This document shows, one piece after another, positions 27,916 to 28,561 of a stretch of DNA of 64,000 nt. Source of the DNA: Stenotrophomonas lactitubi (GTDB lineage: Bacteria > Pseudomonadota > Gammaproteobacteria > Xanthomonadales > Xanthomonadaceae); assembly GCF_002803515.1 (NCBI RefSeq), contig NZ_PHQX01000002.1, forward strand, positions 372,001-436,000. The letters are read 5' to 3'. A program made the position numbers and the translations under genes. A model generated the notes under the pieces. It saw only the letters and a list, made by a program, of their open reading frames with translations, did no database searches and was not told the origin of the DNA. Numbering within the stretch: the first letter of the stretch is position 1; each line of letters begins with the position of its first letter.

Positions 27916-28181
27916 CGGCGGCCTGCTTTTCCCGGTGATGTCATTTCCGCGACCGCGGGGGGGTGTCACTTTCTTTGCGCGCAAAGAAAGTAACCAAAGA
28001 AACGCTCCGCCGGCCGCGAGCCGGCGTGCTTCGCACGCCGGTGCCCTGCGCTTCTCGGTGAATCAGGGGACGGCGCCGAACTCGCTGCGCTCAGACATCG
28101 GCGCCTCTACGCCCCTGATTCCCCTGCGATGCTCGGCTCGCTAGAAGGCGGACCCAACGTCAAAAGCCGATGTTGCACCCA

Positions 28182-28204
28182 GTAGATCCACGCCATGCGT
28201 GGAT
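28182..28204. repeat. SMAG unit at the centre of the inverted repeat
   Basis: GTAGATCCACGCCATGCGTGGAT, identical to the units of the 19425-19605 array. Confidence 0.9.
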
Positions 28205-28234
28205 GCTGTTGCTGTTGCTGTTGCTGTTGCTGTT
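28205..28234. repeat. (GCTGTT)5 hexanucleotide tandem repeat
   Basis: Five perfect copies of GCTGTT followed by the degenerate GCCCTT GCCCCT. Directly abuts the SMAG unit. Non-coding, so no phase-variable protein is implied. Confidence 0.9.
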
Positions 28235-28561
28235 GCCCTTGCCCCTCCCGTCCGCCTTCAAGCGAGCCGAGCACCGCAGGTCCGGCGAGGGCGCAGAGGC
28301 GCGGGTGTCTGAGCGCAGCGAGTTCCCGCGCCGTCCCTCGACGGACCGAGGAGCGCAGGGCACCGGCGTGCGAAGCACGTCGGCTCGCGGTCGGCGGAGC
28401 GTTTCTTTGGTTACTTTCTTGATGGCGCACATCCATGTGCGCCACCCTACGGGCCGGCTACGCCGTTCCGCGCTGCTCCTGCAGCGCGGTGCACGAGCAA
28501 AGAAAGTGACACCTCCCCGCAGTCGCGGAAATGACCCGCCGGGAACAACCGGCGAACCCAG

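Follow-up and report, generated by a model that had tools for sequence, protein, structure and literature searches.

The folded-back element at positions 27940-28535 of the window, the 64,000-nucleotide stretch analyzed here (G000:C2:372001-436000, from a 4.87-Mb genome that its SMAG-type repeats suggest to be a Stenotrophomonas), is best read as a non-coding, non-autonomous foldback repeat with triplex-forming ends that recombines through its own arms, a reading whose probability we put at about one half. Its A/T-rich, three-block ends could form an intrastrand triplex with a pseudoknot, as single-stranded DNA or as RNA. Its long arms would recombine with each other and invert the element in place, either entirely or one layer at a time, and its near-identical end palindromes would recombine or slip, deleting the middle and leaving a solo palindrome. 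The single-stranded stages of replication would be the likely time of such rearrangements. The element would be a selfish, structure-prone repeat that is tolerated mostly downstream of genes, and selfish persistence is the leading reading of its role as judged from sequence. Genome comparison supports this reading in that it shows the dispersal of the element, its presence or absence at given sites, its occurrence in both orientations, its unlocked layers, and the mirror and loop/flank covariation of its ends. Each of these ingredients has been known before, triplex motifs as well as palindromic repeats and inverting segments; their combination is unusual. The element bears on why palindromic repeats between genes are retained in bacteria and on what intrastrand-triplex motifs do.

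Layout, predicted fold and gene context

Self-comparison resolved the element into three co-linear inverted blocks, 27984-28076 with 28328-28420 (93 nt, 91%), 28078-28153 with 28250-28325 (76 nt, 84%), and 27940-27981 with 28494-28535 (42 nt, 93%). For 27935-28545, RNA folding predicted an energy of -489.2 kcal/mol, compared with -269.4 ± 7.3 kcal/mol for 20 shuffled sequences (z -29.9). A preliminary description had reported an imperfect inverted repeat of about 600 bp that might form a very long hairpin if transcribed; the arms do reach from 27940 to 28535, and the hairpin is borne out as a predicted fold far more stable than shuffled sequence.

The limits of the whole element, outer inverted flanks included, rest on self-comparison, the fold and the orthologous site in relatives. 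The left outer flank (TTTCCGCG..GTGTCAC, 27940-27969) pairs with the right one (28506-28535). The left end unit (27970-28005, plus strand), recognized by its sequence, mirror covariation and loop/flank complementarity, comprises block A (TTTCTTT, 27970-27976), loop1 (GCGCGC, 27977-27982), block B (AAAGAAA, 27983-27989), GTAACC (27990-27995) and block C (AAAGAAA, 27996-28002), followed by CGC (28003-28005), which is complementary to part of loop1. The right end unit (28402-28505, minus strand) is split into 28402-28421 (TTTCTTTGGTTACTTTCTTG) and AAAGAAA (28499-28505) by an insert of about 78 nt (28421-28498) that contains two small hairpins and recurs at element ends in relatives. This insert had been noted before and is present, but the perfect palindrome ascribed to it is interrupted, since TGGCGCACAT-CC-ATGTGCGCCA consists of two 10-nt arms with CC between them.

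Inside the end units, the left outer stem carries a small hairpin, P1a, whose stem is variable according to its sequence and the alignment of copies (28020-28041), and the right outer stem carries its counterpart, P1b (28361-28384). Side hairpin module A (GAATCAGGGG..CCCCTGATTC, 28060-28122) has the tip AACTCGCTGCGCTCAGACA at 28079-28097, and module B (GTCCGGCGAGGG..CCCTCGACGGAC, 28280-28346) has the tip TGTCTGAGCGCAGCGAGTT at 28306-28324. The two strands of inner stem P3 (28122-28153 and 28250-28279) enclose the center, where a GTAG-tagged, SMAG-like palindrome (GTAGATCCACGCCATGCGTGGATG, 28182-28205, plus strand) is followed in the apical loop by (GCTGTT)5 (28205-28234, plus strand), as had been described. 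The name SMAG for the GTAG-tagged center is taken from that description and from the text of PMC3733652. A protein-coding origin was rejected, as open reading frames overlap the arms in several frames on both strands.

Searching with a 701-base query revealed five copies in the source genome, the window copy counted, of which four have both ends and one is a half copy. The others are at C1:3555032, C1:2594417, C1:868454 (without one side hairpin) and C3:41143 (the half copy), and many further matches of the query cover the SMAG-like center alone. In the half copy (L046, G000:C3:41143-41396) an unrelated palindrome replaces the left half and the right half is normal. A composite hairpin elsewhere (L047, G000:C1:2579500-2580900) contains part of the inner stem but has no end units, and the inverted repeat that closes it is a different, GC-rich one. 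With an arm as the query, matching DNA, some of it weak, was found in 19 of 41 genomes (the source genome and 40 relatives). The arms are therefore not confined to this locus, and the proposal that they belong to a dispersed repeat family holds as to dispersal, but the unit is the whole folded-back element and not single arms that met by chance. The differences between the arms are largely systematic: the end types are distinct, the two side hairpins differ, and the element flips.

The copies follow a common plan over about 430-600 bp, with an end unit, an outer stem with one small variable hairpin per side, side hairpins A and B, an inner stem and a center. Module A reads GAATCAGGGG, module B GGTCCGxCGAGGG, and the tip is usually AACTCGCTGCGCTCAGACA. 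The alignment comprised 60 elements, 53 of them in the length range 415-449, and the 48 with both tips were used for energies; haplotype scoring and pattern counts were based on 62 full elements, the AAAAGAAAAG variant included. Both side tips were present in 49 of these 62. By pattern matching, a SMAG-like center occurred in 50, a SMAG-like unit replaced at least one side tip in 6, and an insert resembling that of the window was found at one or both ends in 16. A four-way-junction fold was also considered and rejected: the side hairpins fold well alone, yet the long hairpin had the lower mean predicted energy (-326.9 versus about -278.5 kcal/mol for 48 elements, the junction figure being a rough sum of parts).

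As judged by Pfam, the window copy lies between a HisKA_3 kinase gene with a LuxR-type response regulator gene (plus strand) and the genes for a cytochrome b561 and a catalase (minus strand), which confirms the convergent pairs proposed earlier. If both messages are read into the element, it might act as a structured RNA or a bidirectional terminator whose long hairpin ends or protects them, and the extremely stable predicted fold favors such a function. So does the gene context in part. The neighbors of the copies at sites S3 and S4 of the source genome also look convergent, but those at S2 and of the half copy are tandem, all gene calls except those at the window being approximate. Of 35 elements in other lineages, heuristic open reading frame calls placed 11 between convergent, 22 between tandem and 2 between divergent genes, compared with 80, 329 and 86 of 495 background gaps. 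The elements sit away from promoters, as REPs do according to the text of PMC3733652.

Mismatches in the stems give a divided picture in a tally in which many cells represent one inherited mismatch. The side hairpins are asymmetric, with 1 G.T and 47 A.C in module A and 79 G.T and 1 A.C in module B, which would fit a function as RNA, but G.T and A.C are equal in the outer stem (93 versus 87) and number 47 versus 105 in the inner stem. Because the modules lean opposite ways and the outer stem is balanced, no one RNA strand is favored throughout, and strand-specific RNA selection was rejected, as the mismatch bias is not consistent. Moreover, the orientation of the element is random across species, the element is absent from some orthologous sites, and the text of PMC4666352 reports related triplex motifs, TM/PIT, as being without promoter or terminator activity. 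A role as structured RNA or terminator thus appears unlikely. A search of 27700-28800 against Rfam gave nothing credible, only two microRNA models far below the gathering score; the earlier failure to identify a known element holds for Rfam, in which no curated model matched. Among nine other sources the single Rfam match adjoined an element end: Bp1_684, a predicted small RNA of Burkholderia, matches L049 6713-6820, immediately next to that end.

Three-block end units

The end units have the order TTTCTTT, loop1, AAAGAAA, GTAACC, AAAGAAA. In 93 of 97 distinct, pattern-matched units, blocks A and B were reverse complements of each other. For a triplex of the purine motif on one strand, and of the pyrimidine motif on the other, mirror symmetry is needed. 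As the core AAAGAAA is its own mirror image, most units cannot distinguish a mirror from a direct repeat, and only asymmetric units are decisive. Block B was asymmetric in 15 of the 97 units, and block C was its exact mirror in 10 of them, a direct copy in none and neither in 5. Examples are AAAGAAAA..AAAAGAAA and AAGAAAA..AAAAGAA, and a further mirror variant, AAGAGAAA..AAAGAGAA, occurs at three loci (L026, L080 and L127). A general scan with 8-nt blocks yielded 105 direct and 10 mirror matches, an excess of direct matches that arises because in many lineages the core has a G after it on both sides.

Loop1 can pair with the 3' flank, since the bases immediately preceding block B complement those immediately following block C. 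The mean contiguous stem formed in this way was 2.96, compared with 1.47 after shuffling (74 distinct contexts; maximum of 1,000 shuffles, 1.80). When contexts were collapsed to one per upstream 5-mer, the stem was 3.38 versus 1.80 and none of 5,000 shuffles performed as well, with a stem of 2 or less in 15 of the 47 remaining contexts; this set and that of the mirror units are made up of related sequences, mostly retrieved with one exact motif, and do not represent independent evolutionary samples. Since loop1 and the 3' flank would adjoin in the folded triplex, the natural model would be an H-type pseudoknot with the third strand lying along stem 1, a geometry that we infer from the sequence. 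Together, the mirror and loop/flank covariation are as would be expected of an intrastrand triplex with a pseudoknot, and, although the variants are modest in number, they are evidence at the level of sequence for the conservation of a triplex fold rather than a simple hairpin. Such a triplex would presumably form in cells.

Intrastrand triplex motifs have been reported by Holder et al. (2015) under the name TM_ECO (earlier PIT), as G/C-rich sequences with 3,610 copies in 262 genomes (PMC4666352). The ITxF definition given in the text of that paper comprises three stems of 6-15 nt, compatible triads and loops of 1-6 nt. By inspection, the left end of the window copy falls within it, with 7-nt stems and the loops GCGCGC and GTAACC of 6 nt each; units with an 8-nt loop1, such as that of L057, lie outside the loop range. 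The element ends share with TM_ECO the succession of a pyrimidine stem, a short loop, a purine stem, a short loop and a second purine stem. They differ in being A/T-rich instead of G/C-rich, in having GTAACC as loop2 and in the complementarity of loop1 to the 3' flank, and TTTCTTT/AAAGAAA/AAAGAAA does not match the TM_ECO pattern, CCCTCNCCC N3-6 GGGNGAGGG N3 GGGNGAGGG (PMC4666352). According to the same text, TM_ECO is associated with local instability, and its type A and type B units sometimes form an inverted pair; in the present element, facing units are separated by 336-777 nt and enclose DNA that is largely palindromic. At the only E. coli TM locus that we examined, a single unit lay in a 137-nt gap, and a second strain had the same two genes. 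Neither AAAGAAAG nor CTTTCTTT appears in the main text of PMC4666352, and searches of open-licence text, figures excepted, with motif letters and related descriptions returned no paper on this element.

Presence, orientation and mobility of the element

Four orthologous sites (S1, which is the window site, S2, S3 and S4) were compared in 61 genomes of the genus on both strands, using the best 30 loci per site. Full elements were present at 21 loci for S1, 18 for S3, 22 for S4 and 1 for S2, which was left out of the test of orientation. The numbers of A-left elements, those with module A toward one given flank, and of B-left elements were 9 and 12 at S1 (n = 21), 11 and 7 at S3 (n = 18), and 11 and 11 at S4 (n = 22). 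On a tree built from flanking genes (29 genomes common to the three sites; 4,809 columns), orientation required 8, 5 and 9 parsimony changes at S1, S3 and S4, compared with shuffled means of 7.05, 5.74 and 7.70; the fractions of 2,000 shuffles with as few changes or fewer were 0.93, 0.38 and 0.94. For presence, the changes numbered 5, 6 and 5, compared with means of 7.17, 9.05 and 6.42 (fractions 0.038, 0.025 and 0.123). The phylogeny is thus reflected to some degree in presence at two sites and in orientation at no site. At S1 the source genome and its sister in the tree, G021, have opposite orientations. Both orientations also occur at S1 among genomes listed as one contig (B-left in G005, G021, G053, G069, G074 and G075; A-left in G052, G072 and G076), which argues against assembly error.

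We scored the ends, modules and center separately. At S1, flips of the whole element, end types included, were seen, with AB/AB/+ in 6 and BA/BA/- in 8 of 21 elements. At S3 the combinations were BA/AB/- (6), BA/BA/- (3), AB/AB/+ (1) and AB/BA/+ (2), and the other 6 of 18 were mixed or incompletely scored. The ends, modules and center are not locked together, as is expected of crossovers in the outer and inner stems; insertion in two directions would not give that result. These sequences suggest in-place inversion of the element one layer at a time, and the cause would be homologous or template-switch recombination. As the element appears to invert at several sites, its dynamics should be directly measurable by long reads. 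The persistence of distinct end types and of two side modules across species indicates that the arms are not freely homogenized, and this counts against the reading that we prefer.

Flips could also be produced by a site-specific recombinase acting at the end palindromes, as in an inverton. The conserved, palindromic ends and the whole-element flips at S1 agree with this, and both orientations of one site were found at S1, S3 and S4, across species and not within one culture. However, the modules, center and ends at S3 differ in their relative orientation, which would need crossovers inside the stems, and the kinase, regulator, cytochrome and catalase genes next to the window copy are convergent and thus offer no obvious promoter to switch. 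We regard an inverton as improbable.

Recombination or slippage between the end palindromes, which our preferred reading also invokes, would leave a solo palindrome. Five loci have a solo end palindrome only, one at S1 (L190) and four at S3 (L243, L244, L250 and L262); it reads GTCACTTTCTTTG..CAAAGAAAGTGAC, in which the outer half of one end is joined to that of the other. Alternatively to a collapse product, the solo palindrome may be the older state and the landing site. Other orthologous loci, e.g., L191 and L194, have no trace of the element. Comparison by eye with empty loci revealed no clean insertion junction or target duplication at S1 or S2, where the flanks are too diverged; those at S2 differ or are palindromic themselves. 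This, too, weighs against our preferred reading. MITEs and foldback elements are non-coding and dispersed and consist of an inverted repeat over nearly their whole length. The same is true of the present element, which differs in that no parent transposon was found, no target duplication was seen, and its interiors vary by lineage while its ends are shared.

A miniature transposon, moved by a REP- or TIR-associated tyrosine transposase (RAYT or TIRYT) for which the end palindromes serve as TIRs, was another candidate. TIRYT transposases with two TIR families are described for S. maltophilia in the text of PMC3733652, and the dispersal of the copies and their differing presence or absence are in keeping with transposition. 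The TIRs resemble the element ends in that self-complementary units lie close together, but their consensus GGGGWSAS is not the conserved part of the element, and whereas TIRs bound a tyrosine transposase gene, the ends are absent from all 5 Y1_Tnp loci of the source genome and from all 17 such loci in 14 element-bearing genomes, within about 1.5 kb on each side. A lone CAAAGAAAG was found at one of the 17 loci, which fall in 11 of the 14 genomes, the other 3 being without a Y1_Tnp match. A profile of the five Y1 proteins of the source genome detected no further relative among open reading frames of at least 80 amino acids in the set of loci scanned. The same text describes REPs as units of 20-40 bp with a GTAG tag and associated RAYTs, mostly intergenic and 3' of genes (PMC3733652). 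With the REP/SMAG units of Stenotrophomonas the element has in common its palindromic nature, its mostly intergenic position 3' of genes and, in most copies, a SMAG-like unit at its center; it differs from them in its length, in its ends without GTAG and in that no Y1 transposase was found beside the ends. It is therefore hard to see the element as a transposon of this kind, and we consider that quite improbable, even though the ends may be identical with the 1152 or 4509 TIRs of PMC3733652, whose sequences are given in its Figure 9. A trans-acting transposase of another family may move the element.

At one of the five Y1_Tnp loci of the source genome, the Y1-type transposase gene (L312 1288-2106, plus strand) is flanked on both sides by GGGGTCAG/CTGACCCC palindromes. 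It is probably a TIRYT-type gene as reported for S. maltophilia.

End units beyond the genus

An exact 21-mer was found in at least 119 stretches of the genome collection, of which 80 carried names among the matches listed. These names include Caballeronia, the commonest, Xanthomonas, Lysobacter, Luteimonas, Pseudoxanthomonas, Silvimonas, Variovorax, Thiobacillus and Hydrogenophilus MAGs, and, outside Pseudomonadota, Chitinophaga, Segetibacter, Selenomonas MAGs and Desulfuromonadales MAGs. With a stricter end pattern and an even draw of genomes, matches were rare, coming at phylum level from 6 of 398 genomes (3 of 212 genera) and at order level from 10 of 200 (3 of 69 genera); a backwards control pattern had no match in the same draws.

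An inverted partner was present 150-900 nt inward of 69 of the 128 motif occurrences with enough sequence, and outward of 5 of 142; the other 59 of the 128 were without an inward partner within 900 nt, which counts against our preferred reading. The spacing of facing units was 412-499 nt in 49 of the 69 pairs. Among the named records listed, facing pairs belonged to Pseudomonadota, and those outside this phylum had single, same-direction or outward-facing units in a search allowing three mismatches. Forty paired elements from other lineages formed nine groups whose interiors gave no BLAST matches to one another of at least 60 nt, and yet the ends were shared. Inside the ends, 36 of the 40 had an inverted self-match, which extended over at least half of the length in 19, and none was detectable in 4. 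More than half of the predicted pairs spanned the midpoint in 36 of 39 elements, and the side tips of the Stenotrophomonas type had a match in 5 of 39.

The occurrence of the same ends around unrelated interiors is not explained by recombination alone. One alternative is neutral palindrome correction, in which template switching during replication makes the DNA between two stall sites symmetrical, with neither selection nor a mobile unit. The nine groups of unrelated interiors, their frequent inverted self-matches and the outer flanks, which are palindromic too, agree with it. The narrow spacing of the ends, the four elements without a detectable self-match, and the fact that one element keeps its different end types and side modules from species to species and from site to site are at odds with it, and we find it doubtful. 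In a related scenario, which we put forward as speculative and no more probable than that, the triplex-pseudoknot end would itself be a signal for replication to stall or switch templates, and two facing ends would palindromize the DNA between them and keep flipping it. If so, these ends would define a class of repeats, common to distant bacteria, that spreads and rewrites its interior without a transposase of its own.

A phage origin was rejected, as 50,697 phage records gave no match, and so was carriage by plasmids, for which five Caballeronia records matched 10% of the query or less. The exact motif occurs in six IMG/VR stretches, and on one viral contig (L170 207-662) there is a full element akin to the Caballeronia group. 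In a betaproteobacterial element (L113 3135-3654), the center has C-rich and G-rich stretches that by eye resemble TM_ECO, and two triplex families may meet in this one element. At L071 (1616-3050) 1.4 kb separates the facing ends, and the short arms enclose gene-like sequence; this element has possibly captured cargo. Finally, Xanthomonas maliensis has three end units in the same direction, about 310-400 nt apart and with no facing pair (L063 6391-7129).
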